Shown: piece after piece, positions 11,101-60,030 of the stretch
Numbering within the stretch: position 1 is the stretch's first letter
Layout: every line of letters begins with the position of its first letter
From: Rhyzopertha dominica
Lineage: Eukaryota > Arthropoda > Insecta > Coleoptera > Bostrichidae
NCBI GenBank assembly: GCA_025024175.1
Contig: QCXZ01000041.1
Location: 23,803,786 to 23,867,785, forward strand
Length of the DNA: 64,000 nt
Reading direction: 5' to 3'
Notes under the pieces: model-generated
Seen by the model: only the letters and a program-made list of their open reading frames with translations
Told to the model about the DNA's origin: nothing
Database searches by the model: none
Program-made: the position numbers and the translations under genes

Positions 11101-14100
11101 AGGCGAAAAGGCTCGAGAAATCTTGCCTGATGTTACACCTGCTCGCCTGTCGAAGGTGTTCTTCACCGACGAAAAGATTTTCACGCTCCACAACCGTCAA
11201 AATCGCAGGCAACTGCTCAAGAAAGGTCAGCAGAAGACCGCTGCGGCGAGAACCATCCGCCGAAGTCATTTTCGGCCCCAGTTATGGTTTGGGCTGAAAT
11301 CTGCGCCACCGGAAAGAGTCCGCTGGTCTGCATCGAGCGGAACGTCAAGATCAATGTCGCCAATTACCAACAGCAAGTCCTCCACGACGTACTGGATCCG
11401 AGAGCGACGTAGCACTTCGGCCCAGCAGAATTTCCTCTCCAACAAGACTGGGCACTGGCGCATTCCGCCAAATGGACAATCGCCGCCTAGGAAGAGCTGT
11501 TTCCGGGCTTTTGGGGCAAGGACAACTGCCGCGGAACTCGACGGACCTCAACCCCATGGACTACTCAGTGTGGTCCATCCTGGATCAAAAAATCTCGGCT
11601 ACCCGCTGCACTACCGTCGAAGCGCTCGAAACGCCTCTAATGCGCGCCTGGGTCGAAATTACAGTGGACCAGTTGTGCGAAAGGGGGCAATTTCGGACAT
11701 TTATTGGTGTTACAGTTATTGATATAAACGTTATTACTCATGAAGTTGATTGAATTCATTTTTGTATAAGGTATTTCTATACTGTTGAAATATCTGCAAA
11801 AATTATCAGAACTTTTTTTTGTCACCCTGTAAAAGTTGTAGATAATGAAAAAATCAACAACTTCTGTCTGATTGCTTTTTAACATAACCTTATAGCTGGC
11901 CTAGCTGGTCTAGTGGGTAGCGCGGAAGCGCGATTGCCTATGGCCAGGTAGGCTGCGGGTTCGAATCCCGCGTAAGGCATGGATGTTGTGAATGTTAAAT
12001 TATGCAATGTATAATATGTAATACAATTTAATACCAATTAAACATAAACCTAATGAGCTGGCTAATTGCCCTAAGATGGCAGGGCCATTAACAAATAAAA
12101 AAAAATAACCTTAAAGCCGGCCTAGCTGGTCTAGTGGGTAGCGTGGAAGCGCGACTGCCTATGGCCAGGTAGGCTGCGGGTTCGAATCCCGCATAAGGCA
12201 TGGATGTTGTAATGTCAAATTATGCAATGTACTAATACAATTTAATTCCAATAAAATATAAACCTAATGAGCTGGCTAATTGCCCTAAGATGGCAGGGCC
12301 ATTAACAATAAAAAAGAATAATACATAAAGTTTTCGAGAAAAATGTAAAATAGGTATTGACTTTTTCTTTTCCCGTTTTCTATTTTTCATTTCTACAAAA
12401 ATAATCCAATTTTAATGAAACTTGGTGAAAGTATACTTTTGAGTGCTCGAAATAACCACAGTTGTATCTATTCCAGATCAATCTTGGTCTACGTAAAAAA
12501 TAAACGTTATTTTCACAACAGAAAAATTCCCACGTAAATCAACGTCTTGCGGTTGCGTAGTCGTGTGATATGTCTCAATTTCAACAATGATGTTTTCAGA
12601 GTTAAAGTAGAATATTATAATCAGTCCTGGTAGTTTTAAAATGCAATGGACAACCAATACATTATAAAATAAGTACAAAAGACGCGGTATGCATGTGAAA
12701 TAAGGTTAACTGTTATACACGTTTATGCGTCACATCAGCTTTCGTTGCTGATTTAAAATGCTTCATTCTAGACATTTTTCAAATGAGCATTATATAATAA
12801 TTACGTAAGTATAACCCGTGGAGGACGGGACATTTTCAATGGCCATGGCTGTATGACGATCGGACCAACTTTTAACAACTCGTATATCAAGTTTAGCTAA
12901 AAAATATTGATAATGCTAACAGCAACTATTATTAATGAAACACATTAACTTTGCATACCCATTTAGCATGTAATGCCACTTAATAAATTAAATATTGATC
13001 AACAATCAAATTAATTCAATTTTAATGTAAATTAACTCTCCTGTAAAGGGTTGGTCCTAGTGATAGGTATTTGTTTGCCAAAAGTAAGTAAGAAAGGATG
13101 GAAGGAAGCACAAAAAAGCTTTAGCGTTTTAAAATTTGCCTCATCATCGCACGTGGCGATGTGATGTGAAGCATTCAAAGACCTAAAAAATCCCGAACCA
13201 AATTTTATAAATACGTCTCCAAATGATCTATATTTTTAACTGTGATACTCTGTATTGTGATTATTATCAACTTTGATACTAAGGTTAATTAGCCTATTTT
13301 TATGCAAATACCTTCTGGTTCAAAGAAGAATAGGAGGACAAATGCCCTCAAAGCCATCTAACCGGAACTCTGCGAGCTAGGCGATCTATAACTGTGATAG
13401 ACACCGACCTAGTGCAGGTTCCTAGCGATGGTATCGGAGAGGCTACTCCGTAAAGCAATGACGATGTAAATCATCATGTAAATCATTATGAATCCCAACA
13501 GGGCGAAACTAGTCGTAGGGTGAGAGTGAACTGACCAGGGCAGATGATTTACATCACCTTATGGTTCAGTTTTCCATTCATGATGATTCACACTGAATAA
13601 AGGCCTAGTGAAGCTTCCAGAGTGTCATCTAGTGTTGCTCTTGCAAATATGTTGTAAATTGTAGTTTTTACATGTTATAAAATGCAAACTGTAAGGTTAG
13701 ATAAAATTAAAATAATAAAAGCAATTCATATGTTCGGCCATTTATTATTTGCGCTGAATGACAAGTTGGATTAAATGTGGGTTGTGAACAAATATTTTAT
13801 TATTATTCAACATTTAGAAACATCAAAGAAATATTTACTCTTCCAAAATTTATGAGTGTTAAATCGCTGCTTACCTTTTTCATCAAATTATTTGTATCAT
13901 ACCCATTACTATTCAAAATACTGACAATGTCTCTATATTTTTCCATTGCTCCACCAGTCCACCCAATATCACGATTATGTATCAAGCCTGGGAGATCATA
14001 GAAGAAATCTTTTGTAAGGGAGGCATTGATTCCATACTTTTCACTAAAATAACATAATTACACCTGATGTGCATTAAACTATATCGCAAATAATTTACGA

Positions 14101-15411: not shown

Positions 15412-18400
15412 TTAAGTTGTCTCCATTTCTGGAACTAACTCAATTAGACGCCTTGACCCAAATTTGTGTTTGACTGCAAAAAAAAACAAATAAGACATTA
15501 ATTGCTGAAAGTAAGATGGGTTATAACACATCAATGAAACAATTTATACTTTACGACAAAAATATTTAATTTTTAATTTAAAAGTGAAGGTGTGCAAGAA
15601 TGCCTTCGATATGTGGTATATGTCACCGTTCAAACCTCTTAATGGTCAGAAAATTTTACTTTAAAGTGGTTTCTACTTAAAGCATTGTAATATTATTGAA
15701 CTTCTTAGTTAATTTTACCATAATTTGCATTTAAAACAAACAATACAACCACATACAACACACTGGATGGGTGTGAACAGTGATCAGAAGTAATTCAATT
15801 ACAAGTAATGAATTACTGTAATTCGGTTACTTTTCTTAGTAATGAGTAAATGTAAAGCATTACTTTTAAAAAACGTAACAAGTAATTCTTAAAGTAATTG
15901 TTACGAAATTTTATTACAATACTTTTTATCTTGTAACAGATTTTTCGACAGTTCTTTCATTTGTTACATTTATGGAATTTACTCATCTGAAGCAGCCCGT
16001 GATCTTTATTGGTACATGTCCTAAAGTAAGATCTCAAAGCGTAACACAGTGGAAGTTAAATATTTATGGTTTGGAATAACCACAAGTTCTCCATTTAAAA
16101 GTAAACAAGGGCTGTTCCCTTTTTTCAAAATTTGTACAATGCACAATCTCCTGAGCGAATTAGGGTAGGTTGATCACGCCATCAGATAACTGTCGCAGTA
16201 GCATTAACTAGGTTAAAATGAGAAAAATACGATTAACAAAACAGTTAAATTTATATTCAAGTAATAATGAATACCTTTATTCTGTCTATATCGAACCATC
16301 TAATTTAATGAACTCTGTAAATATAACATATTTTTATTTAATAATTTGATTGTATTAGTAGATGTAAGACCTGCAACTTACGCACTAGACTGGACAACAT
16401 GCATGTAAGTTGAATTAGCGTAAGTTGTACCTATATGATAGCACAAAAATTTTGTTTAACTGAGCCCAAGAGCTAATGATATTTAGAATTAGAACCAAAA
16501 TATAATATTAAAATAATTTAACACATACACTAATATTATATTCTAGTAATTTATACATTAGCCGTGTGGAAAAACAGTCTGGGTATAGTTACTTACACTC
16601 GAGATTGATTCAGCTGATCACATGTAATAACGATATATACCATACCTACTTGTAATAATCGATCTTGTGATTAACTGAATAAATGTTTATTTATTTATTT
16701 TATCATTTTCAAGGTGCAAATCAGTCAATTCGTGTAAGTGGTGTTACAGTGATGCCACTTATTTAAAAAAATATGGATGAAAACAAAAAATAAAGTTACA
16801 TCATGTTGTCTTGTGATTTAGGCAAATATTAATATCATTTCCAACTTTTGCATTATGAAATTGTATGAACTGTTTAAACAGTATAGACACCACAAAATAA
16901 GGTAAGTGTAACTCACACAACTATTAACTTAAATAAGTCACACAAATCTGTACTAGAATCAGTTAGTATTTATTTAGTGTTCTTCTGTTAAAATCATCTT
17001 AAAAATATGTTTGATGATTGAATTTCAAATTCAGTTTAAACTATCTGTCTACAAGAAAATGTGCATCAATCTGTAAAATCATTAATACTTATTACTTCTA
17101 CATTACTGAAATGAACCTGTATTTAATACAATTAGTTGCAAATAGACAGTATCATATATCTGCCCATTTTTCGTCTCTTAATACATTTGTAGTATTAGTT
17201 TCTACTAATAACTATGAATGTTTTAACCCTAAACGCCAGATGAAACTTGATAGGTTGGCAAAAGGAACATCTTTCTGCCAAAGTTTACAGTACTAAATCT
17301 AAATTAATTTTAACAATATGTGAGTCACATGAAGTTCAAAGTGCTCTATACATTTTTGTACTATTAATTATTAAATAAGTTCAATTGTCTACACAAATAC
17401 TCACCAACATCAATACTCTGCAAATCCAGTACAGTAAAATTGTTATCTTTCTTATCTCCCCCTGCAGCTATAACAAAAGGGCAGTCAGGACACAATTCTA
17501 AACAGTGCACTGCACCCATATTAAAATTCTTCTCGTGTACAAGTTCAGGTACAGTATCACTTTCTGCATCCCATATCTTAAGCTGTCCATCTGGGGAAGA
17601 TGTCACTAATAATCCAGGACACTGTCCGCTTAAAGCGAGACCAGTCACTTCCTTCTCATGAGCTTGAAAATTCCACATTTGACCTATAAATTTTAAATAT
17701 GTTTTATGTAATGTAAATCATTTATATAACTAATTTCGAATATATGAGATAACAAATAGCAAAAAAGTAAGGAGAATCTTAAACAAGACTTAAATAAAAA
17801 AGCCAATATAGAATTAATGTGGCGCTTTTATTCATTGCTTTCAAATGTGACATACATACTGCAGTATTCTTAAGTCACATCAAAGTTGAGTACTTTAATA
17901 AATGTAACGTCAAAATTAAACTAAACTAATTAATTTTCTATAGCATTCCATTCTATTGTTTTATCATGCTACTAGAACCCAAACTTTTTAGCCAAGATAG
18001 AAAATAGGACATAATCCAGTCAGAGACATAACATAAAAAGATCCACAGCAAAATCTAACATACTGGGACTAGAGTAGTCAATGGTATGTCAGGTTACTAC
18101 ACTTTTTTAAGGGTCCTCAATATAAATAAATAACAAGGTTGTGCGCTGTGTTGTCTACACTAGAAACAATCCAAGGACAGCTGTTTCGATCTATTAGATC
18201 TCTTCAGCTTGGCAACACAGCACAGAAGTTTTACTCCATAAGTAGGAGGTCAACGACATAAGGTCAGTAGGCAAAGCCAAACAATCTCAGGGAGCGACAC
18301 CCACCGGCAAGCCGATGAGCGCCGCCCCAAAGAAACGTCTGGGATCGCTAGTGCGTCTAGAAGGGAACTCCATTGACAAGGTGTTTGAAACGAACACTAC

Positions 18401-21400
18401 CTTGCCGGCAGTTCCCAATGTCGCATTACTGCATAGGTGCAGCACCCATGTAAATAAATAACAAAGGTGTGCGCTGTGTTGTCTACACTAGAAACAATCC
18501 GAGGACAGCTGTTTCGATTTATTAGATCTCTTCAGCTCGGCTATAGTCCCAGTATAGACAACACAGCACAGAAGTTTTACTCCATAAGTAGGAGGTCAAC
18601 GACATAATGTCAGTAGGCAAAGCCAAACAATCTCAGGGAGCGACACCCACCGGCAAGCCGATGAGCGCCGCCCCAACGAAACGTCTGGGATCGCTATTGT
18701 GTCTAGAAGGGAACTCCATTGACAAGGTGTTTCAAACGTATGGAGTAAAACTTCTGTGCTGTGTTGTCTACACTGGGACTATAGCCGAGCTGAAGAGATC
18801 TAATAGATCGAAACAGCTGTCCTCGGATTGTTTCTAGTGTAGACAACACAGCGCACACCTTTGTTATTTATTTACATGGGTGCTGCACCTATGCAGTAAT
18901 GCGTCATTAGGAACTGCCGGCAAGGTAGTGTTCGTTTGAAACACCTTGTCAATAGAGTTCCCTTCTAGACGCACTAGTGATCCCAGACGTTTCGTTGGGG
19001 CGGCGCTCATCGGCTTGCAAGTGGGTGTCGCTCCCTGAGATTGTTTGGCTTTGCCTACTGTAATTATGTCCTCAATCTGTTAAACTTTATGATGCATCTA
19101 GAGGTTTCCTCTGCCATTATAACTTGCAATACTGTTTCTAGCTCATGAATCATACTTGCAGCTCCTTAGTTTTGCCATTATTTAACAAAAAATTATTCTC
19201 TTTTTTAAATGTGTATCAAAAGGGTCAAATTTTTTTACTTGTTTAAGTCTGCTAGTAAAAAATGTAAAGAGTTACCCTTTGATTGAAAGTTTACGAGGGT
19301 GTATTTTTGTTGTAGTTATCGATAAATCAAATCTGCCCGATAAAAATTCAATTTATTTCTTTCTTATTCCTGCTGCATTTAAAAATTTGATCTAGTAACA
19401 CTACATCGGGAGTTATAGTGGCAGTGGAAAACCTCTATATGTTTCATAAAATTTAAAAGACTATGGACCCGTAGACATGCTAACCACATACAACAGATTA
19501 TTCAGTTGTGACATTACAAATTGAAAGACTGGTATTTATTAATATATGAAGAATATAATATAAAAATATAATATTACCCTTTTCTACTATATATTATGTA
19601 TGTAAGAGAATTAGTTGGCGTATTTCTGAAATGCTTCTCTTGAGCTTTGCAAAAATTTTGACAAGAAAAATTTAGAACATAAACTCTTTAATATATGACT
19701 TCAAGTTTGCAGTACTTTTGGAATTATAATCAAGTAAGTAAATGTTTCAATGTAAAGCGCCAAAGCTATGTTACTAATTTTCTCAGACTCATTTGCATCA
19801 GAAGACTATAATAGAATCACCCAACAGATGAAGTGATCACGTGTAGTCGACACATCTATCACGTGATCGGAACCCCTTCCATTCCGAAAAGTGTAACTTA
19901 AACCGCACAACAAATTTTAACATTTATTTTTTCTGAGGCAATATAACCTCAATTTTTATGGACTTAGCGAACGTTCAGGTTTGGAATTTGCAACAGAAAA
20001 GTTTACTCAAAGATGCCCCAAGGCAATTTCTTACAATTAAATTGTCCAGAACATAGTTTTGCAATTTTACTTTAATTTTGGTCGATCGGTAAGGTTGGCT
20101 AGTGTGAAACGGGGTTCAAGCAGATCTCCCTCGGTTGCGGAGAACCAATAGGAAAGCTGCGTTTGAAAATCACGTGAAGATCGCGCGTGTTTATTACTCC
20201 GTCTGTTGGGTGATCCAACTATAGTAAATAACATTGACATAAACAAATAATTACTCTGTCAGTTTAGATTACCCCCACCTTCACTGTGTTTAGTCCATCA
20301 TTGTTACGGAACATTATTGTCTTAAAAAAAGCTACATAAGATGATTGTCACATAATTTTCTATCCAGAACGAACATTTTTAAGGCATTTTAAATTTATGT
20401 GAACTACAGAAATTTTTCAAATGGAATCATAAAATTGATGCCCATTTACTTTTTAAACATTAAATAAGCATCAATAATTTAAAAAAATCATTCAAAATCA
20501 GAAATTTCAGCTGAAAGGTTATTAAAAAGAAATCCCTAAGTAATATGCAACAGCTAATGTAACTAAAGCATTCTAATTATTTTATGTATTAATGGAATAA
20601 CAACCCAACTTGTCAACAACAAAAAACACAATGGGCAGTGTAAAAAGTATAGAATTTCCTTAATATTCACCACAGTGCTGTCAACTTAATAATTTTTACC
20701 CTAACAACGGGGTCGTTCACATCTGTAGAAACAACGTGTATCGACACAAAATTCCAAACCTTCGCATCACCCAACATTTAGTTTTGTATAACTTATTTTT
20801 GTTACGTCAAAATAAATTATTAAAATTTAAAATCCTGAAGACGACACGTCATAGTCCGCAAGCCAATCAAAAGCAAGATTGGTTGACGCTAGGAGAAGTT
20901 TTAAGTCATCGTGTTGTAATTTTAAACCAGCCCTGAAGTTCCTGTTCCTATATTCACACAGGAACAATTATTCTTCTGTGCAGTGAAGCCAGTGAGCGTT
21001 GTATTGAAGTGTTTCAGTAATTTTTGAACAAAATTTGCATCCATTGTACCAAACGAGCATATCGCAATTTGGTATTTTTTAATAAGAAGCATATTAGTTA
21101 AACAGAGCTAGTTATCTCAGATAAATCAGAAATATTATATATTTGAACCATGATACCTTTCACAGTGCACCTTTTGTTCGAAGAGCAGGCAACACTGTTT
21201 TTGTTTATTGCGTGCGAGCTTGCCTAACGCCTAACTAGAAATAACTCAAGATGCCGAACAAACGATTCGGGAGCGTCCCTGCCGGTGAATTCAAGTTTTT
21301 ACGGATTGCCGATAGGTGGCAACCCATGTTAAGTGTTACTGGTTAAAGGTTAAGTTTTATTTTAATTTCAAGTTGTAAAAATACAAATACCAACCATTCA

Positions 21401-24400
21401 ATTTATCGCCATGGGTATAAAATTGCCGTATAATAACAATGCTTATCGTAATTTAACAATTAAGAAGCTATGTACCACCGCACATTTATTCGTTTTTCTG
21501 CTCTAAACGACCTTAAATTTCTCCAAATCAAATGATAAACAACGAATTTAGCAAAACTCAAACTATGATAAGCTCAAAAACGCTTAAAAGATAAATGAAA
21601 CTTGCATGATCATTATAATGTGTTTCATTCTGAATAAGATGATAAACAAATGTAAAAATCATACTTGTAAGTAAGAATTTAGGATGGAATGCCATCTGTC
21701 AGCATTACACTGACATGATGACAAAGCCACCTAGCCGCCTTAACGGGTACTACTTCCTAAAGGAAGTGACCTGTAGCCTGACAAATTGGCATGCAACTGC
21801 ATACCTCAATTTGACAGCAGGCCCCCACGGCACTTTTTGCTAACGGGCAAGAACCAACAAACATTAAAATGCATGTCTATGCTGTGCTGTCTACACCTCA
21901 ACCAACTGCAGATAGTACTATTTTGCTGTCATTACAGCTCATCAGTGCAGTTTAGGTCTAGTATAGACAACACGGCATAGAACTGGTTTTGCTTATTTAC
22001 CAAAGCAATGGTATGATGAAAGTAAGAATTTAGGATTCTTATACTTGTAAGTTGCTGCAATCTACCAGTGCCATTTGAAACTTGTATCACCTTCTTTCTA
22101 GAAGAGGGCCATTTTTGTAGCATAATCGATGGCAAAGTTCATAATCCTTTTAAGAGGAGTTATCCGTACCTTGAACATAGCATAACCGGTAAGCATTTTG
22201 TTGTGTGCCTGTGCTGTGTGCAATTTTTGGTGTAATCTTCTGTATGTTTATATACATAAAGAACGTGTAGCTGACAACACTGCCTTTAACCTCTAAGATG
22301 CAAACAATAAATATGGCGCACACTTCAACGTGAAATTGCAGTGGATTAGTGCAAAGCCGCGATACGTGACTGGTAGGGGCTGCGGCATCTGACGTCACGC
22401 TCATAAATTCCTAATCTTTAATAATTTTTTTCTGTCTTAATATGCATCNCACNGAAAAAACGAAAAAATATGGGTTCCTTTATTTTCGATGTAAATTGAT
22501 ATTCCGAATTAAAAGAATTTGGGTGAACGACACCATTGGATAATTTGATTGCTAATTAAAACCTGTTAATCAAAACATTCCAGAGATACAACAGCTCACC
22601 ACCCTTGTTCTGTCAGCCTGTACATTAAGGATTTATAAACAAGCGTACTATTACTAAACAATTTTTACCTTTCCTGCAGTCAAAAGATTGGACTGAACCA
22701 GTACTCGTTGCAGCTAGAAAACTAAATGGTTGTAATGGATTCCATATAAGTCTTTCAGCTTCTCCGTTCAGTTGCCATGTTTGATGAGAGTCCGGACTCC
22801 GACAGTCAAATACACGAGCAGTGTTATCGCAACCACCTAAATGCATTATAGTATGCAAACACATACTGAGAAATAAACTTTACAGTTACTACCTGCTAAC
22901 AAAGTCTGTCCTTCAAATTTGTGCCACTGCAGGCACTGCACCTTATCTGAAAATGCAGATATCACAGTACTAGGTACTTGTTTATCGATGTCCCATAAGA
23001 TGACGCTTTTATCTACAGATGCACTAGCAATTATGTGATGGAACTGTTTGTTCCAGGCTAGATCCAAAACGGCATCTGAATGTCCAACTCTAGGTGTTCC
23101 TTTTTTACGGCTTGGTAGTTTACCTAATTTAAATGCGGGTTCTAGGCAGTTCACTATATCCAAGTCCCAAACTTCTATTACCTTAAACAGATTTTCTTAT
23201 CAAGTCATAAAACAAGAAACTCTGTTTTCAACTAAGTAAAATTAACTACTAAAAATATTATGGGCTACCACTAGATATAGGTTCTTTTTTTATTTGTGTT
23301 GTAAATATAGTATGACAAGATGTGAATCGTGTTAAAGATGTCACAGTTACATATTATTCTCGTTTAGCACATAAAAAAAGGAGTGCAGAAAAACTTGCAA
23401 ATGTGAAATAAAGTTAAGCCTTCTTTGAAAATCGTTTGGCCTCAACTTTTGCATTATGTGCATTTAAAAAATATATCTATCTCTTCTTAAAATTCTGTAT
23501 AATACTGATTTTACTAACTCTGATTTATGTTACCAGAGTGTGAAGAGAAACGTAAGGGTATATCACTCACCATCAATAAGTGATTTAAGCTACCCGTGCT
23601 CATGGTCCAATGATATAGCCGAAAACAATAACTTGATCCCTGCAATATGGGCAATTTTATGCTCATTTCCAGCGAAAATTGAGTTGGTAATTAACATGTC
23701 GTTTGTTTATATTACGTCCTAATTTGTTTTGGAGAAAATCGTTAATGTAAAAGGGTGGAATATACCTGTATTCTACTTCTGCCTTTGTATTTAGTGGAAC
23801 CAAGTTGTCGAAGTTAGAGAATATTGATTTGGTTGTAGTTTATCAACATAATATGTACATCCTACTACGACATTCAAATATCTGGAATATTGGGTCCGTT
23901 CCCCTACAGCTTGTAGTTATTACAATCGATAAATATCAATAACCATTGATATATCGATAGTTGCTCCCAGCCCTACAGTATATGTAATGTAAGCATACAC
24001 AAGCCCACAAGCCAGGTTTTGGAAAGTATGGTATCTATCTTGCTGGAGATGGGATTGTTATGATTATGTTTGTTACTGCTGTTAGTTGCTATTGATATTA
24101 CCATTTGTTCTTATTCTCATTATTTCCTTAATTACTCTTGTTGCTGTGTATTTTACATGCATTACACAAATGTTGCATACACCATGTGAGTATCAGAAAT
24201 ATATTTTATTTATGGGATGTGCAATGAAAATGCATAACGTGCAGCACAGGTTTACCATAAATACATCAGGCTCGATAGCAATTTTTCGACCACCAGGTTT
24301 TCATCCACATAGGAAAGGGCTTCTTCAGGTAGATCTACATTTTATACCAAGACTTAATACAGGTAAAAGGACTGCCGCCCACCAACAGTTCTATGCATAT

Positions 24401-42421: not shown

Positions 42422-44194
42422 ATGGTAAGCTACTTACACTATATAAATATTGTAGACGAGCATATTTATTACCTTGTTTTATTTTAGGGCAAACATAAAC
42501 ATAAATCAAAGCATAAGTCAGACAAGAAGAAGCACAAGAAACATAAACGTAGGCTGAGCTCAAGTTCTGATGCTACAACTGAAGATGAATGGGTGGAAAA
42601 ACCGTCTAGTGTTTCACCTCCTGAACCAAATGCAGCAACAGCTGATGAGTATGGAAGAGAGGATTGGATGTCGCTTCCCACAAGTTTTTTAACGAGTTCA
42701 AATCTGGACAGGCGAAAGGAAAGGGAAGAAGCGAAGAGACAGGAAAAGGAAAGAGATAAGTATGATCCAAGAAAAAATATACGTGAACTGAATCCGTATT
42801 GGAAAGATGGTGGTGATGGTTTACCCAAATTTAAAAAACCTAGGGAAGCAGATGATGAAAATCAAAGAGATACGTACAAGAGTTCAAGTAACAGAAACAG
42901 AGTATCGAACTGGAAAAAGCAGAGTCATACTGTGTCAACCATAACAAAGAAAGATGGACAAAAGGAAGATATAATAGTAAGTAATGTAAATACACAGGAA
43001 ACAAACAAAAATACAGAAATTATGTCAGAAAAAGATTTAAATGCATTAGCAGCAAAACTTGTTAAAGCAGAAATTATGGGAAATGCAAAATTAATTGCTG
43101 AATTAAAAGAAAAACTTGAAAGAGCAAGATCTGCTAAAAACGTCGAGGAGCAGGATCAGCGGGAAGTTTTATTAACACAGACTGATTCCAAAGGTTATTC
43201 ACAGCCTATCAAACTGCAGTCCCAATATGGTGAACATTCCGGTTCAAAACGCAAAAAACAAAAATTAGAAACTCATGCAGGAGGTGAAAGAGTTCGGTAC
43301 TTTGCCGATGATGATAAATATTCATTAAAACAGATGTTTGAAAATGAAAAATTCAATTCTGTAGATGACCAAAATAGGGAATTTGCCAAACTCGCTGGAA
43401 AAATAGCCAAAAACGATGACTTGGATGATATTTTCACGGACAAAATAAGACGCAAGGAATCAAGTGAGAAGATGGACAAACGCATGAAGGATAGAGCTGT
43501 TAGCGAACATCAGAACACAGCACGCACCTTAGACAACTGTGCTTTTTGCTTGCAATCAACAAATATGCCAAAACATTTGATGATATCAATGAATGAGACA
43601 TTCTATTTGAGTCTGCCGCAACAGGAACCTTTAACAGATGGCCATTGCCTACTGATCCCCATTCGACACATTCCTTGCATAACCCAGTTGGACGAAAATG
43701 AATGGAGTGATTTAATGGACTTCAGAAAGGCTTTGACAAAAATGTTCAACTCCCAGGATGAAGACGTAATTTTCTTNGAAACTGCCATGAATCTTAGTCG
43801 TTACCCTCATGCAGTTGTTCATTGTGTTCCTTTACCGAAAGAACAAGGAGATTTGGCGCCGATCTATTTTAAAAAAGCAATTGATGAGTCTGAAACTGAA
43901 TGGTCATCCAATAAAAAATTGGTTTCCTTAAAAGGCAGAGACGTTAGGAAAGCTATTCCTAAAGGTTTGGAGTATTTCAGTGTTTCATTTGGAATGGAGG
44001 AAGGATATGCACATGTTATAGAAGATCAGAGGTTATTTCCAGGCAATTTTGCACAAGAAATAATCGGAGGCATGTTAGACTTGCATCATAGTAAATGGAA
44101 AAATCCAAAAAGACAGCGTTTCGAAGAGCAAAGCAAAAGGGTTGTAGAATTTAACAAAACATGGAGCAAATTTGACTGTACAACATCGCAATAG
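42422..44194 (+). CDS. CWF19L2: CWF19-like protein 2 (spliceosome/lariat turnover)
   Basis: Exon 1 contributes only the ATG (42422-42424). A 63-bp intron (GTAAGC ... TTTTAG) follows, and exon 2 runs 42488-44194, giving 569 residues. The N-terminus is a Lys/His/Arg-rich tract ([20 protein letters not shown]), followed by a charged linker with coiled-coil character. The conserved CwfJ C-terminal domain 1 starts at about residue 352 ([29 protein letters not shown] with the HIT-like fold, [13 protein letters not shown]), and domain 2 ends the protein ([39 protein letters not shown]). The family (yeast Drn1/Cwf19) associates with late spliceosomes and helps Dbr1 debranch intron lariats in the nucleus. 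It is shorter than the human protein (about 890 aa), mostly in the linker. An N at about 43777 leaves one residue unknown. The AATAAA at 44227 is the likely poly(A) signal. Confidence 0.95.
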
Positions 44195-45355: not shown

Positions 45356-45745
45356 ATACTTGTAGATTCTTCATATAATCAGGGCATCGGTCAATAATAA
45401 ATAAATCCTTTTAACTATACGCCAAGCTTTCGGAGGTGTTAGACTCCTTCTTCAGGGCTTCTAGTGATGGATTATTTAGGGCTTAACAGGATCACAGAAA
45501 CCAAATTTTGCATATTATCTTATTACTTTTTAAATGTAATTTCCCTCAATGTTAGAATTATTTGTTGGTTTTCTGTTACTTTGTGGTTGGTTTCAGTGAT
45601 CTTGTTAAGCCCCCTTAAATAATCCATCACTAGAAGCCCTGAAGAAGGAGTCAAACACCTCCGAAAGCTTGGCGTATAGTTAAAAGGATTTGTTATTTAT
45701 TGCAACTGACGCCCTGATTATGTAAAGAATCTACAAGTATAATAA
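45356..45745. repeat. Inverted repeat with hammerhead-like hairpins
   Basis: Arms of about 150 bp (45356-45505 and 45588-45745) are inverse copies around an 80-bp centre. Each arm contains, reading towards the outside, GCC-CTGAAGA-A-GGAG ... CTCC-GAAA-GCTT-GGC. This has the hammerhead core words CTGAAGA and GAAA, a GGAG/CTCC helix II with one bulged A, a tiny AGCT stem III and a GCC/GGC helix I. It is therefore hammerhead-like but off consensus. There is no reading frame. It could be two head-to-head Penelope-type ends or a MITE. Confidence 0.5.
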
Positions 45746-54821: not shown

Positions 54822-55157
54822 TGTAACACCACGACCAAGTTTGGCAACCTGGCACACAGTCCGGCGATACCGCAACGCCAGCAACCAATAGCCGAACGCC
54901 CTGCCGAACCACCAATAGGAAGCGTTGAACGCAGAAGCAGTAGAGACGCATCAGATTCCGCGTGTCGGTTGGCTGGTCGTACCGATCTCCCACGAAATAC
55001 ATAACCCTAAATTAAATATCTTATCGTTTAATGTAAGTGTACGTGGAATAAAGTTGCCAAGTGATTTTCGCTTAGAAGCTGTGTATTTGTTGTCATTTCA
55101 CCGCGTGTGATCCCCCTCAAAATTTCTTTAATAACGCGTACTAACCTACGTGTTACA
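54822..55157 (+). repeat. 5' LTR
   Basis: 336 bp starting TGTAACACC and ending GTGTTACA. It is identical to the 3' LTR at every position I compared. It contains AATAAA (GTGGAATAAAG) for polyadenylation. Confidence 0.96.
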
Positions 55158-55293
55158 AAAGTGGCGCTCCAACTCGTGGCCAGCTGTGAAAGACAAAACA
55201 ACAAACAAACGACGGTGAAAAAAGTGGAATTTCACGACGACTTCCCACAACTACAATCTACGTTCTTCAGCAAGAGCAGAAAAGTCGACAGTG

Positions 55294-58200
55294 ATGGGTG
55301 ATCCAGTTGTGATGACGCAAGCTCAGCTCCAGCAGCTTATTGCCGGACTGAAGGACGTCATGACCATGGAGCAGCAGCAGTCCCCAGCAGGAGGAACAGC
55401 TCAGCAACAGGTCAACGATTCTGGTAACTTTTCGCAGTGTATGTCACGTTTTTCTGGAGAAACTGGTGAGGATATTGAAGCTTTTATTAACGCTATTAGT
55501 ATTTACAAAGACTGTGTTCGTGTTTCGGATGATAATGCGTTGCGTGGACTACCCATGTTGCTTGATAAAATGGCCGCTAAATGGTGGCAAGGAATTAAAT
55601 CCTCGATTGCTAACTGGAATGACGCTTTAGTTGCGATTAGACACGCGTTTGGTGTGCGCAAACCTGCTCATAAAATTTTTAAGGAATTATTTTCTAAAGA
55701 ACAAGCAGAAAATGAGCCAACCGACGTATTTGTAACAAATGCGCGAGCGCTCCTTTCACATTTACCCTCCACTCCTGTGTTGCACGAGCAACATAAGTTA
55801 GATATGATATATGGACTTTTAAATCGCAAAATTCGACATCGCCTTTCGCGGGATGACGTCACATCGTTTGATACGCTCATTCAACGCGCGCGATCAATCG
55901 AAGATTCTTTTGCAGAAATCGCAAAACCGGCAGAGACTAAACCGCGTATTCGTTGTAACTTTTGCAACAACATTGGACATTCGAAGCAAGAATGCCGCAA
56001 GTTTCTTGCTTCGCAACAAAACAGTGGAACGGTTGCGCCTTCAGCGAGTAATAACAGTAAGACTGCGCCTGCGCCAGTTCAAACGGTAAATCGCGTTAAC
56101 AATGCAATGCCTATACACTGTTTCGGTTGCAGTACTCCCGGATTTGTTCGATCAAACTGTCCAAACTGTAATAAAAAAACAAGTGCCGCTACTCTTGATT
56201 TATTACTTACTGAGATAAACAGCCAGGATGAAAGTCGACCACTTATCCAAGTGAGTGTGGCAAATTTAACTGGTTTAGCGTATATAGATACAGGAGCAAA
56301 GTGCTCCATTGCAGGACAGCGTTTGTACAATCATTTGTTGAAAAATAATATTCCCTATGTTCAGAAAAACAAACTACTTACCCTTGCAGACGGTGTTACG
56401 CGAAACGTAAGCACCCACATATTTGATTGTGATGTACTACTACAGGGACGAAGTATTCGGACTACGTTTATAGCAATACCTGATCACGCAGACAACAAAA
56501 CACTTTTAGGTGTTGATTTCATCCGTGCAGCTGTCATGTTAATTGATCTTGCGCATATGATATGGAGCTTTGCTGATCAACCAACGAAATATTTTTGCTT
56601 TCATAAAGAATCAAAAGCGGAACATGAATGTATCAATATTTTAGAATTAGAATTGCGTTCAGATGAAGGTCCACATCTAACAGAAAATCAACGAAATGAA
56701 TTAGAACTGCTTCTGAATAAAAACAAAGAAATATTTTCGGAAAATGTGAAACCGACTCCATATGCGGAGCATTCCATTAAACTTACCGATGATACTCCAA
56801 TTTCGGTACCACCGTATCGTGTATCTCCAAAAAAATCTCAAATAATGAAGGAAGAAATTGAAAAGTTGCTCGAAAGCGGCGTAATAGAAGAATGTGACTC
56901 TCCGTTTTCAGCACCAGCTGTATTAGTGCCAAAAAAGAACGGAAGTTTTCGATTATGCGTCGATTACAGACAATTGAACAGTGTCACTGTTCCGGATAGA
57001 TATCCGCTCCCAAGGTTGGATGACTTGCTCCACGCCACTGGCGCTACAACCTACATGTCTACCTTAGACTTGCGAGCTGGATACCATCAAGTTGCTGTCA
57101 AAGAATCAGATAGGGACAAAACGGCTTTCATAACGCCTTTTGGCATTTACAGATTTATACGCATGCCATTTGGGTTGCGTAACGCCCCCTCCACCTTCCA
57201 AAGGCTGATAGACCGTCTAAGATCTGGTCTTGCCGACATAACTCTACTAGCGTATCTGGACGACATAATCTTGTTGTCAACGGATTTTAATCAGCACCTT
57301 GATGATTTGCAGCGACTGTTTGATAGGATGAAGATGTTTAATCTACATGCCAATCGCGATAAATGCACATTTATTAGTCCACGTGTTAAATATCTCGGTC
57401 ATGTAATTACTCCAGCAGGAATCGAACCAGATTCGGATAAAATACGTGCGATCATTGAAATGACCCCGCCACGTTCAATAAAACATGCAATGTCGTTCTT
57501 ACAAACATGTAGCTGGTTCCGTCGCTTTATACCCAATTTTGCAGATGTGTCGCGACCAATTAGTAACTTGTTGCGCAAAAATGCAGTTTTTAAGTGGGGT
57601 ACAGCAGAGAATCAAAGTTTTGAAACGCTCAAACGATTGTTAACTACAGCTCCTATTCTAAGACAAGCCGATTTAAATCTCCCGTTTGTTCTAAAGACTG
57701 ATGCCAGCTCTTATGCCATTGGAGCATGTCTGCTCCAGGGGGAGAAAGAAGACGAACGACCTGTCGAGTTTGCCAGTAGACTGCTCACAACAGCCGAGTG
57801 TAACTATAGCACAACGGAACGTGAAGCATTAGCGGTTGTATATGCTATAAACAAATTCCGTGGCTATCTAGAAGGATCACCAGTTATAGTTAAGTCTGAC
57901 CATCAGCCATTAAAGTGGTTAATGTCGCTCAAATCTCCTAGTGGTCGCTTAGCAAGATGGTCATTGATGCTGCAAGGTTTTGATATTCAAATGGAGTACA
58001 TTCCCGGAAAAAGTAATGTCATAGCCGATACCCTGTCTCGACCGCAGTGTTTTCAGGACACTCAACGTACTTGTGATATTTGCACGGTGGCTGTGACGAT
58101 GGAAAGCCAATCTGCTAGAGAAATGCGAGCCCAGCAGCTGGCTGATGCAGAAATTCAAAAGATCATCGAATGTTTTGAAATGTCAAATCCAGATCAAGTT

Positions 58201-59877
58201 AATTTTGCTCGATATACGAATCGTGGATTCATTATGAATCAAGGGATTCTCTACCGATACTCACCTGAATCCGAAAGCGAAGAAGCTCAATTATACTTGC
58301 CGAAAACTATGATACCTAAAATACTCTACGAACATCATGATTCACCTGCCGCAGGACATTATGGTGTAGAGAAAACCGTTCGTAAAATTGCTAACCTATA
58401 TTATTGGCCTACGCTCAGAAGAGATGTAATCGCTCATATAAAAAAATGTGTTGACTGTCAACGATACAAGCCAAACAACCTTAAACCCGCTGGTTTATTA
58501 CAAACACCTGTGATGGCCCAACGTTTTGAAACTTTGGCTATGGACCTATTTGGACCTCTACCGGAGGCACCGACTGGTGAAAGATGGGTCTTCGCCGTGG
58601 AAGATACTGCCACCAAATGGATTGAGTTATTTCCATTACAAAAAGCAACAGCTGAAGCTTGTGCGCGTTGTCTGATTGACGAAATCATTTTACGTTATGG
58701 CAGTCCCCGAAGAATTATAAGCGACAACGGTTCACAGTTTGTTGGCGAAATAATGCAAATCGTCACTTATAATTTTGGAATCAAACAGTGCCTTAACCCT
58801 AATTATTCTCCACAATCAAATCCGGAAGAAAGACGTAATCGCGATATTAAAACTCAGTTAGCAATACTGGTACGAGATAATCATACCCGATGGAAAGAAA
58901 TGTTACCGTCCATTCGATTTGCCATGAATAATGCTCCACATCAAACGACCGGATTCACTCCAGCTTATCTGTGTTTCGCCCGTGAAATGCGTGTACCGAG
59001 TGACATTACTAACGATTTCCGCCCCATCGCGCAAAATGAAAATATAGTTGATGAGCTCCTACCGTACTTGAAACAAGTGACAATAACTATGCAACGCGTA
59101 CGCGAAAATAGTGAACGTCGTCAAGATACTTATAAAGAAAACGCCGATAAACGCCGTCGAGCCGTGCCACCATACAAAGTAGGCGATAAGGTGTTGGTAG
59201 AAGTACACGCTTTAAGCAATAGTGCCCAACAGTACACTTCAAAATTTGCCCCGCGCCGTGATGGACCATATGAAATAGTGGAACAGTGTTCGCCAACGAC
59301 ATTTCGTATCGCGCATTCCGACGATCCATCACGTATCTTGGGAACGTACCACACGTCTGCCTTACGACATTTTAACTCAAGCGAGGCTGCCGATCCAGAG
59401 CCCGTGCGCCCCCTGCGAAAGAAAGGACGCCCCAGAAAATCGCAAGCTCAGTGTCCTGAGGTTGACCCGACTACCGATGAAGAATCATCCCTTGAGACAG
59501 AAGACAACAATGACCCCGAGGAGGTTCCTGTAGAACTAATGCAGGGACGACCCCGTCGAACACACCGTCCGAGGATACCATGCTCATCTTCTTGTTGTGT
59601 CAAAAATCCAATCACGTTTCTGTGTGTTACAGATCAACAATCCATCAATCGTTGGATTCCAACCGAGGCGGTACTGGAATCCAAAGGGGGAGACTGTAAC
59701 ACCACGACCAAGTTTGGCAACCTGGCACACAGTCCGGCGATACCGCAACGCCAGCAACCAATAGCCGAACGCCCTGCCGAACCACCAATAGGAAGCGTTG
59801 AACGCAGAAGCAGTAGAGACGCATCAGATTCCGCGTGTCGGTTGGCTGGTCGTACCGATCTCCCACGAAATACATAA
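55294..59877 (+). CDS. Gag-Pol polyprotein of the gypsy element
   Basis: A single 1527-residue frame from ATG 55294. Gag comes first (SRFSGETGEDIEAFINA, KWWQGI) with a zinc knuckle CNFCNNIGHSKQEC near residues 221-234 and a second CFGCSTPGFVRSNC near 276-289, in which Phe replaces His. The protease has AYIDTGAKCS at about 328-338. The reverse transcriptase has YLDDIILLS at about 654. RNase H has LKTDASSYAIGACL, the TEREALAVVYAI helix and VKSDHQPL. The integrase has the HHCC zinc module (HHDSPAAGHYG ... CVDCQRYK), catalytic Asp in AMDLFGPLP and SDNGSQFV, and Glu in NPEERRNR about 35 residues later. The frame is uninterrupted, so the element may be active. Gag and Pol are fused without a frameshift. 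The last ~61 codons are read inside the 3' LTR and end at 59877. Confidence 0.96.
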   Translation: MGDPVVMTQAQLQQLIAGLKDVMTMEQQQSPAGGTAQQQVNDSGNFSQCMSRFSGETGEDIEAFINAISIYKDCVRVSDDNALRGLPMLLDKMAAKWWQGIKSSIANWNDALVAIRHAFGVRKPAHKIFKELFSKEQAENEPTDVFVTNARALLSHLPSTPVLHEQHKLDMIYGLLNRKIRHRLSRDDVTSFDTLIQRARSIEDSFAEIAKPAETKPRIRCNFCNNIGHSKQECRKFLASQQNSGTVAPSASNNSKTAPAPVQTVNRVNNAMPIHCFGCSTPGFVRSNCPNCNKKTSAATLDLLLTEINSQDESRPLIQVSVANLTGLAYIDTGAKCSIAGQRLYNHLLKNNIPYVQKNKLLTLADGVTRNVSTHIFDCDVLLQGRSIRTTFIAIPDHADNKTLLGVDFIRAAVMLIDLAHMIWSFADQPTKYFCFHKESKAEHECINILELELRSDEGPHLTENQRNELELLLNKNKEIFSENVKPTPYAEHSIKLTDDTPISVPPYRVSPKKSQIMKEEIEKLLESGVIEECDSPFSAPAVLVPKKNGSFRLCVDYRQLNSVTVPDRYPLPRLDDLLHATGATTYMSTLDLRAGYHQVAVKESDRDKTAFITPFGIYRFIRMPFGLRNAPSTFQRLIDRLRSGLADITLLAYLDDIILLSTDFNQHLDDLQRLFDRMKMFNLHANRDKCTFISPRVKYLGHVITPAGIEPDSDKIRAIIEMTPPRSIKHAMSFLQTCSWFRRFIPNFADVSRPISNLLRKNAVFKWGTAENQSFETLKRLLTTAPILRQADLNLPFVLKTDASSYAIGACLLQGEKEDERPVEFASRLLTTAECNYSTTEREALAVVYAINKFRGYLEGSPVIVKSDHQPLKWLMSLKSPSGRLARWSLMLQGFDIQMEYIPGKSNVIADTLSRPQCFQDTQRTCDICTVAVTMESQSAREMRAQQLADAEIQKIIECFEMSNPDQVNFARYTNRGFIMNQGILYRYSPESESEEAQLYLPKTMIPKILYEHHDSPAAGHYGVEKTVRKIANLYYWPTLRRDVIAHIKKCVDCQRYKPNNLKPAGLLQTPVMAQRFETLAMDLFGPLPEAPTGERWVFAVEDTATKWIELFPLQKATAEACARCLIDEIILRYGSPRRIISDNGSQFVGEIMQIVTYNFGIKQCLNPNYSPQSNPEERRNRDIKTQLAILVRDNHTRWKEMLPSIRFAMNNAPHQTTGFTPAYLCFAREMRVPSDITNDFRPIAQNENIVDELLPYLKQVTITMQRVRENSERRQDTYKENADKRRRAVPPYKVGDKVLVEVHALSNSAQQYTSKFAPRRDGPYEIVEQCSPTTFRIAHSDDPSRILGTYHTSALRHFNSSEAADPEPVRPLRKKGRPRKSQAQCPEVDPTTDEESSLETEDNNDPEEVPVELMQGRPRRTHRPRIPCSSSCCVKNPITFLCVTDQQSINRWIPTEAVLESKGGDCNTTTKFGNLAHSPAIPQRQQPIAERPAEPPIGSVERRSSRDASDSACRLAGRTDLPRNT

Positions 59878-60030
59878 CCCTAAATTAAATATCTTATCGT
59901 TTAATGTAAGTGTACGTGGAATAAAGTTGCCAAGTGATTTTCGCTTAGAAGCTGTGTATTTGTTGTCATTTCACCGCGTGTGATCCCCCTCAAAATTTCT
60001 TTAATAACGCGTACTAACCTACGTGTTACA
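59695..60030 (+). repeat. 3' LTR
   Basis: 336 bp, same sequence as the 5' LTR. The Gag-Pol stop codon lies 183 bp inside it. The AATAAA at about 59919 would be the poly(A) signal of the genomic RNA. Confidence 0.96.

Follow-up and report, generated by a model that had tools for sequence, protein, structure and literature searches.

In the bostrichid beetle Rhyzopertha dominica, a family of hammerhead-bearing retrozymes is inserted in one constant manner, as two head-to-head arms whose outer ends lie at two different fixed positions of the repeat unit, one of each kind in nearly every insertion, between short duplications of the target, and a Penelope-like element (PLE) resident in the same genome is inserted with the same anatomy. 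The copy from which this analysis set out lies at positions 18122-19067 of a 64,000-nucleotide stretch of contig QCXZ01000041.1 (assembly GCA_025024175.1, forward-strand positions 23,803,786 to 23,867,785), which was analysed whole and is called the window below. We think it probable, at roughly 0.78, that machinery of the Penelope type reverse-transcribes the retrozyme RNA, nicking both strands of the target and starting from two internal sites. The element itself is a further member of a known retrozyme type; its insertion anatomy (35 of 40 retrozyme insertions, and 21 of 22 PLE pairs) is the new part, and no report of retrozyme insertion anatomy of this sort was found among the titles and abstract openings of the searchable, mostly non-subscription literature.

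The window element

A first-pass annotation of the window had described three hammerhead units, two of them head-to-tail with cleavage sites 328 bp apart and the third inverted, and had read them as a retrozyme-like repeat with a hint of a Penelope connection. All three are present in that arrangement, and the Rfam model Hammerhead_1 (RF00163) matches each of them. The predicted sites at 18175 and 18503 and their spacing hold good, but the tandem units and these sites lie on the minus strand; the 328-nt monomer is true of this copy, the length being that of a unit with an 18-nt deletion (unit A, beside helix I), while the family unit is about 346 nt; and of the proposed extent 18122-19062 the left bound was right and the right bound moves to 19067, where the target duplication sets it. 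The features are as follows, with insertions placed on a 346-nt circle numbered from the ribozyme cut:

18122-19067: retrozyme insertion, bounded by the 9-bp target duplication GTCCTCAAT at 18113-18121 (left) and 19068-19076 (right)
18122-18447, minus strand: unit A, with which the minus-sense cDNA arm begins; its outer end is at about circle position 53 (site 1)
18448-18738, minus strand: unit B, the same arm continued round the circle, stopping at the inner junction
18738-18739: head-to-head inner junction, where circle positions 112 and 261 meet
18739-19067, plus strand: inverted arm C, almost one full circle; outer end at about circle position 246 (site 2)
18170-18213, minus strand: hammerhead A, with helix I CCAAG/CTTGG and a cut predicted between 18176 and 18175; RF00163 30.9 bits
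18498-18541, minus strand: hammerhead B, which lacks one pair of helix II and has a cut predicted between 18504 and 18503; RF00163 26.5 bits
18784-18827, plus strand: hammerhead C, with helix I CCGAG/CTCGG (as in B) and a cut predicted between 18821 and 18822; RF00163 31.1 bits
18111-19470: MITE-like inverted-repeat element that hosts the retrozyme, with ends GGGTCC...GGACCC, recognised from inverted arms at 19068-19107 and 19429-19468 and from the empty-site alignment

In a self-comparison of the window the direct copies 18120-18213 and 18448-18541 are 328 bp apart and 94% identical, and the inverted arm matches over 335 nt (18255-18589 against 18736-19070) with 96% complementarity. Read in the ribozyme sense, the left-end arm runs for 616 nt across units A and B, or 1.8 turns of the circle, and the right-end arm runs for 329 nt in the opposite direction. 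The label MITE-like (miniature inverted-repeat transposable element) for the host repeat is our reading of it. When the flanks of the insertion are joined with a single GTCCTCAAT, their alignment to the opposite arm of this host repeat is uninterrupted (E 4e-14), so the empty site of the window insertion is known.

The GC content of the monomer is 0.488 and, as the first pass had stated, no open reading frame (ORF) of 150 or more amino acids in the window ORF listing overlaps 18122-19067. The window element thus has the traits by which metazoan non-LTR retrozymes (those lacking long terminal repeats, LTRs) are recognised: it is non-coding, its GC content is below 50% and its target duplication is longer than 4 bp. 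These findings, the covariance-model match, the preserved genomic copies and the covariation of helices I and II (the last three also bearing out the first-pass reading) support its identification as a non-LTR retrozyme, that is, a non-coding, non-autonomous retroelement with one type I hammerhead per 346-nt unit.

Insertion anatomy across the genome

The genome search recommended by the first pass, made with 18100-18800 as query, gave at least 107 matches (the best 40 of 482 candidates were scored). We fetched 39 further loci and mapped 41 insertions at 40 loci, the window included; L035 holds two, and L045 was dropped as its flanks are the same as those of L034, leaving 40 insertions for analysis. 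The mapped loci are the best-scoring of the search, a sample that favours long, young copies. All 32 insertions with two mapped arms are head-to-head (minus-then-plus) and none is tail-to-tail; the other eight of the 40 have one mapped arm only, and four of these (L018, L025, L031 and L034) carry a short second arm at the other end.

The outer ends fall at two sites: 39 ends at site 1, at a median of 48 nt after the cut (10-90%: 45-52), and 36 at site 2, near 242, at a median of 241.5 nt (10-90%: 229-248), with site windows of 38-57 and 221-261 that were set after viewing the data. In 35 of the 40 insertions there is one outer end at each site, and in none of the 40 is the same site used twice; four of these 70 ends rest on short, weak alignments (L018, L031, L034 and L044). 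In the remaining five, the right end of L015 (343) fits neither site, and one end each of L017, L036, L038 and L040 was entered by hand as unresolved, the earlier positions being weak or palindrome-borne. Site 1 forms the left end of 16 insertions and the right end of 19. Were the two strands to pick a site independently and with equal chance, 35 one-of-each insertions out of 35 would be expected with a probability of about 3e-11 (arithmetic). The outer ends correspond to 3' ends of the sense RNA, which implies that cDNA synthesis starts there. In computed folds site 1 lies in a predicted 9-nt loop, with a mean unpaired probability of 0.81 versus 0.32 for the whole circle, and site 2 is less clear at 0.49.

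The insertions are flanked by target duplications: a duplication score of at least 8 was obtained in 32 of the 40 versus 5% of 312 mismatched flank pairs, and a score of at least 10 in 24 versus 1.3%, with those of L026, L043 and L046 being doubtful. Among the 24 exact duplications, which were listed by hand, the median length is 12 bp and the AT content 0.76 (0.64 in the window). The inner ends, by contrast with the fixed outer ones, vary: on the circle their separation ranges from 11 to 168 nt (at most 5 nt in 0/32 and at most 15 nt in 2/32), and 18 of the 32 inner junctions have an overlap of 1-5 nt. The first-pass hint of a Penelope-like connection is strengthened beyond what that annotation could see, because the inverted copy that it had left unexplained is the rule among the mapped copies of the family.

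A resident Penelope-like element with the same anatomy

A search of the assembly for GIY-YIG sequences gave at least 144 matches (best 150 of 2080 candidates scored). One locus (L058:3507-5987, minus strand, on C53) has an 826-codon open frame in which RVT_1 (35.0 bits) and GIY-YIG (32.8 bits) both score above cut-off; the whole protein gave no Pfam match and no solved-structure match, and the domains appear once it is cut into three. From these predicted domains, a reverse transcriptase (RT) and a GIY-YIG endonuclease, we class the element as a PLE. Most GIY-YIG matches have no neighbour within 5 kb; those that do are arranged minus-plus in 19 cases, minus-minus in one and otherwise in none.

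We fetched 24 PLE loci and read 22 (L062 was left out and L063 has a single end). Twenty of the 22 had been chosen for minus-plus pairs, so the orientation there reflects selection, while the ends and duplications are free of it; L058 and L061, which are outside that selection, are also head-to-head. One end of each kind, one short and one with a tail, was found in 21 of the 22 pairs (18 by pattern and L064, L069 and L075, with a variant tail, by reading): the short end stops after CTATAAGAAAAA, and the tail end extends some 40 nt further, as far as CACCAACAACTAT. Of the 22 pairs, 20 are flanked by exact duplications of 12-16 bp, and none was found at L064 and L081. The two start sites are 74 and about 112 nt after the PLE's own GAAACGTC, which we read as a decayed minimal hammerhead; they are thus about 38 nt apart, unlike those of the retrozyme, which are about 195 nt apart. 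Retrozyme and PLE agree in their rule of orientation, in the pairing of two unequal fixed ends, one of each to an insertion, in the size of the duplication, in targets rich in AT and in a ribozyme motif that lies upstream of where synthesis starts.

Two sets of related motifs were seen in passing. Two further diverged hammerhead-bearing repeats, about 300 bp apart, adjoin a PLE copy (L059:5553-5945). In the window, a palindrome of about 380 bp at 45358-45735 has in each arm CTGAAGA, a short hairpin and GAAAGCTT (45412-45455, minus strand, and 45639-45682, plus strand); the arms resemble the minimal hammerheads described for PLEs, and no Rfam hammerhead match was found in this palindrome.

The RNA template

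The ribozyme cut site is crossed by every one of the 34 site-1 arms that reach 25 nt and by 13 of the 37 site-2 arms; site-1 arms shorter than 25 nt (e.g. those of L018, L031 and L034), which stop short of the cut, were left uncounted, and two of 73 arms start at neither site. Thirteen arms are longer than one turn, the longest being 780 nt. Since arms cross the cut site or exceed one turn, the longer ones cannot have been copied from a linear monomer cut by the ribozyme; judged from the DNA copies, their template is a circle or an uncut multimer. Units of one insertion diverge by 3.5% on average (30 pairs) and those of different insertions by 7.1% (1805 pairs), and the lower value within insertions is expected if one RNA is copied into both arms. 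The single arm of L009 makes 2.25 turns with units that differ by 0-1.7%, a good fit to one circle.

The hammerhead ribozymes

RF00163 covers all three window cores from the first to the last model position, the check that the first pass had asked for, although with scores below the gathering score. The E-values are 1.9e-5 (C), 2.1e-5 (A) and 6.2e-4 (B) in a 1.2-kb stretch, and 0.001, 0.0011 and 0.033, respectively, when the 64 kb are compared with all Rfam families; hammerheads C and A have the best E-values of that whole-window scan, and hammerhead B scores no higher than some plainly weak window matches. The window units are of type I, with an open-ended helix I, a full core and three helices (RF00163, below gathering). 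Copies with the ribozyme preserved, which the first-pass annotation had made a condition of its reading, are plentiful: the core pattern CTGANGA..GAAACAGCTGTC with the ACAGCTGTC arm has 444 exact matches in the 479-Mb assembly (138 contigs) and its reversed control has none, which excludes chance, and preserved cores were also seen in the copies that we read. A pattern scan of viral contigs found no exact hammerhead core.

The helices were tested on 26 distinct cores from the fetched loci against 500 shuffles. The search pattern fixes the core, helix III and the length of helix II, so pairing in helix III is uninformative and only helices I and II could be tested. In these, 93.7% of cells pair versus 86.5% after shuffling, and 34 cells are double-changed versus 11.0 +/- 2.3, neither value being reached in any of the 500 shuffles; when the partner is slid by one column pairing falls to about 34%. 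Helices I and II covary, although two of five covariation measures do not exceed the shuffles. The arms of helix III (ACAG/CUGU) would have no loop if all four pairs formed, and the helix is likely to consist of two pairs and a four-base loop or to belong to a dimeric hammerhead form. In predicted folds of local stretches AGCUG before the core pairs with CAGCU after it, and the active hammerhead fold may for this reason be the less stable one.

Other retrozyme families

A second retrozyme, of a family with a 352-nt unit, is present in the window:

21673-22040, minus strand: second retrozyme, one turn plus 16 nt in a single arm
21661-21672 and 22041-22052: its 12-bp duplication ATACTTGTAAGT
21891-21961, minus strand: its hammerhead, matched by RF02275 at 25.1 bits against a gathering score of 52 (E 0.0011 over 1 kb)

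Its hammerhead has G12 changed to A, and the copies at L089-L091 keep GAAA. The 17-bp repeat AAGTAAGAATTTAGGAT round 21686-22016 had been taken for the target duplication and was rejected as an overlap of units, the real duplication being ATACTTGTAAGT; the idea that the ends are a random circular permutation was likewise rejected, as the genome search gave a tandem period of 352 bp. That search yielded at least 143 matches at 40 loci (best 40 of 1944 candidates scored), of which, at the level of the table, 18 loci are head-to-head and none tail-to-tail; L094, single in the table, proved to be two-armed on reading. All five loci that were read (L089, L090 and L092-L094) have an end 46-48 nt after the cut, and the other end is at 239-240 in the two two-armed loci and at 61, 95 and 79 in the three single-armed ones. 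The 346-nt and 352-nt families are 64% identical over 187 alignable nt, and in spite of this their start sites lie at nearly equal distances from the cut. L090 and L091 (C41:43107477-43109223) form an array of the 352-nt family with at least five units in one orientation and canonical cores.

In a third family, with a 313-nt unit, the ends are at 46-57 and 209-212 in four of six loci; of the other two, L084 is single and one end of L085 falls at another position (L085-L087 were chosen for minus-plus cores and L084 for tandem ones). The 352-nt and 313-nt families thus obey the two-site rule less completely. The tandem units of 328/346, 352 and 313 nt are within the retrozyme range of about 150-450 bp.

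A model for retrozyme insertion and its alternatives

The model that we prefer is as follows: A retrozyme transcript would be cut by its hammerhead and ligated into circles, and RT and GIY-YIG machinery supplied in trans by a PLE would nick the two target strands about 12 bp apart. Each nicked 3' end would then prime on the sense RNA, one at site 1 (about 48 nt after the cut) and the other at site 2 (about 242 nt), and the two cDNAs would extend round the circle to different lengths and join midway, often by short microhomology. Priming at two sites on both strands would produce head-to-head arms, outer ends that are fixed but unlike, an inner junction that varies and a duplication of the target. 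The retrozyme does have the PLE-like combination of head-to-head arms, two different outer start sites and a duplication. That a protein dimer with two RNA sites ties each strand to one site is our guess; the Anolis PLE protein is predicted to be a dimer (PMC11167929). We are evenly divided on the fuller proposal that an RT/endonuclease dimer holds one RNA at two start sites, with one target strand primed at each, and that retrozymes parasitise it by having both sites on a ribozyme-made circle.

Several observations weigh against this model or the identifications on which it is built. All three RF00163 scores are below the gathering score of 34, and no Rfam family reaches its gathering threshold in the window or in six other loci. 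Pairs changed on both sides number 6 versus 5.1 in shuffles (142/500) and further pair types 12 versus 13.3 (489/500), no excess in either case, and most of the double changes reflect one difference between two families. In the 352-nt family, 22 of 40 loci look single-armed, as the window copy is, and of the 18 two-armed loci 11 have one end of each kind, three apparently have site 2 twice and four have other ends. The one-of-each rule is broken by PLE L081, both of whose ends carry tails and which lacks a duplication. No clear sequence shared by the retrozyme and the PLE was seen where their synthesis starts, and the retrozyme may therefore be served by a PLE family other than the one described here. 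Within L014 and L026 the units are as divergent as between insertions, and window units A and B, which belong to one continuous arm, differ by the 18-nt deletion and a paired change in helix I, for which a single circle is insufficient without later mutation.

The last point bears on the alternative that the template is a linear, uncleaved multimeric transcript and the hammerhead has no role in insertion, which explains passage through the cut site equally well and which accords with the Anolis PLE, whose machinery uses unprocessed RNA in vitro and whose hammerhead mutants insert normally (PMC11167929). We regard it as unlikely, though worth serious attention, given that the hammerhead has been kept with compensatory changes across two families, that the units of L009 are so nearly identical and that animal retrozymes make abundant circles (available portion of PMC7229834). 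The enzyme might instead come from a retrotransposon of the LINE (long interspersed nuclear element) type, with the inversions arising as in L1 twin priming. LINE twin priming is known to fix just one of the two outer ends. In 35 of 40 insertions here, each outer end is fixed and the two differ, the resident PLE has the same anatomy and no poly(A) or LINE-like 3' tail was noticed at the insertion ends listed; although LINEs too could produce duplications of 9-14 bp, and the 15-bp duplications of Nematostella repeats have been likened to those of LINEs (available portion of PMC4918200), we find this source improbable, on an anatomical comparison that covers the retrozymes and the resident PLE of this genome rather than its LINEs.

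Snap-back self-priming of one cDNA, or an antisense template, would also yield an inverted copy and has been proposed for rotifer PLEs from palindromes at inverted junctions (available portion of PMC3846280). It needs coinciding inner ends, which were never seen here (none of the 32 within 5 nt), and the second arm has a fixed outer end of its own adjoining the target duplication; we therefore give it very little weight. Less credible still is a fold-back or MITE-like DNA transposon that holds a hammerhead by chance, for in spite of the inverted arms and target duplications the outer ends are different circle positions rather than terminal inverted repeats, 13 arms are longer than a unit and the middle varies. 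We thus retain copying by Penelope-type machinery from two internal start sites.

Relation to known systems

Newt satellite 2 and the schistosome Sm-alpha repeats are, like the retrozyme, short tandem units with a type I hammerhead. Among the closest known systems are the metazoan non-LTR retrozymes of Cervera and de la Pena 2020 (PMC7229834, whose available portion names insects among the hosts), which share with the present elements a type I hammerhead, non-coding tandem units of about 170-400 nt, a GC content below 50%, the lack of LTRs and duplications of more than 4 bp. That portion leaves the mobiliser of animal retrozymes open and proposes PLEs as strong candidates; unlike the present account, it does not describe head-to-head arms, two fixed ends or a one-of-each rule, and its main text nowhere uses the word "inverted". 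Plant LTR retrozymes, as far as the available portion of PMC4918200 describes them (it also names newts and schistosomes), resemble the present elements in having a hammerhead, in being non-autonomous and in the circular RNA proposed as template; they have a type III hammerhead in their LTRs, 4-bp duplications and a proposed Gypsy-family enzyme, whereas the window element has a type I hammerhead and a duplication of 9 bp (family median 12 bp).

Among PLEs, Adineta Pen2a of rotifers has head-to-head inverted terminal copies, an optional tail at one end and 8-10 bp duplications (available portion of PMC3846280). In the Anolis PLE PAc both target strands are cut and extended, and reverse transcription starts internally with the hammerhead upstream of the start sites, as here; its tail is the stretch between the two start sites, and in vitro there is no apparent difference between the strands in start site, unlike the one-of-each rule (PMC11167929). 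The retrozyme is not itself a PLE, being non-coding (no ORF of 150 or more amino acids) and small in its unit.

Other features of the window

A gypsy-type LTR retrotransposon occupies 54822-59994, where a 1552-aa frame containing RT, RNase H and integrase domains lies between two 300-bp stretches that are 100% identical. At 11881-12330 there are two direct repeats, each about 100 bp long, which are interleaved at a spacing of 214-221 bp. The frame at 42488-44191 encodes CWF19-like protein 2, whose top organism-labelled relatives are from the beetles Pyrocoelia, Zophobas and Photinus (60-62%); its organism-labelled relatives are all from beetles down to the katydid Anabrus (P0083).

Implications

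If the fuller proposal is true, both target strands receive their copies together from a single circular RNA, and nearly every insertion has one end of each kind. On the preferred model, the retrozyme copies would be a base-level fingerprint of the enzyme that mobilises them, common to a PLE with an 826-aa open frame, and the question of what mobilises retrozymes would become one that can be tested at the bench with stated start sites. The one-of-each rule would also bear on the integration of PLEs themselves.

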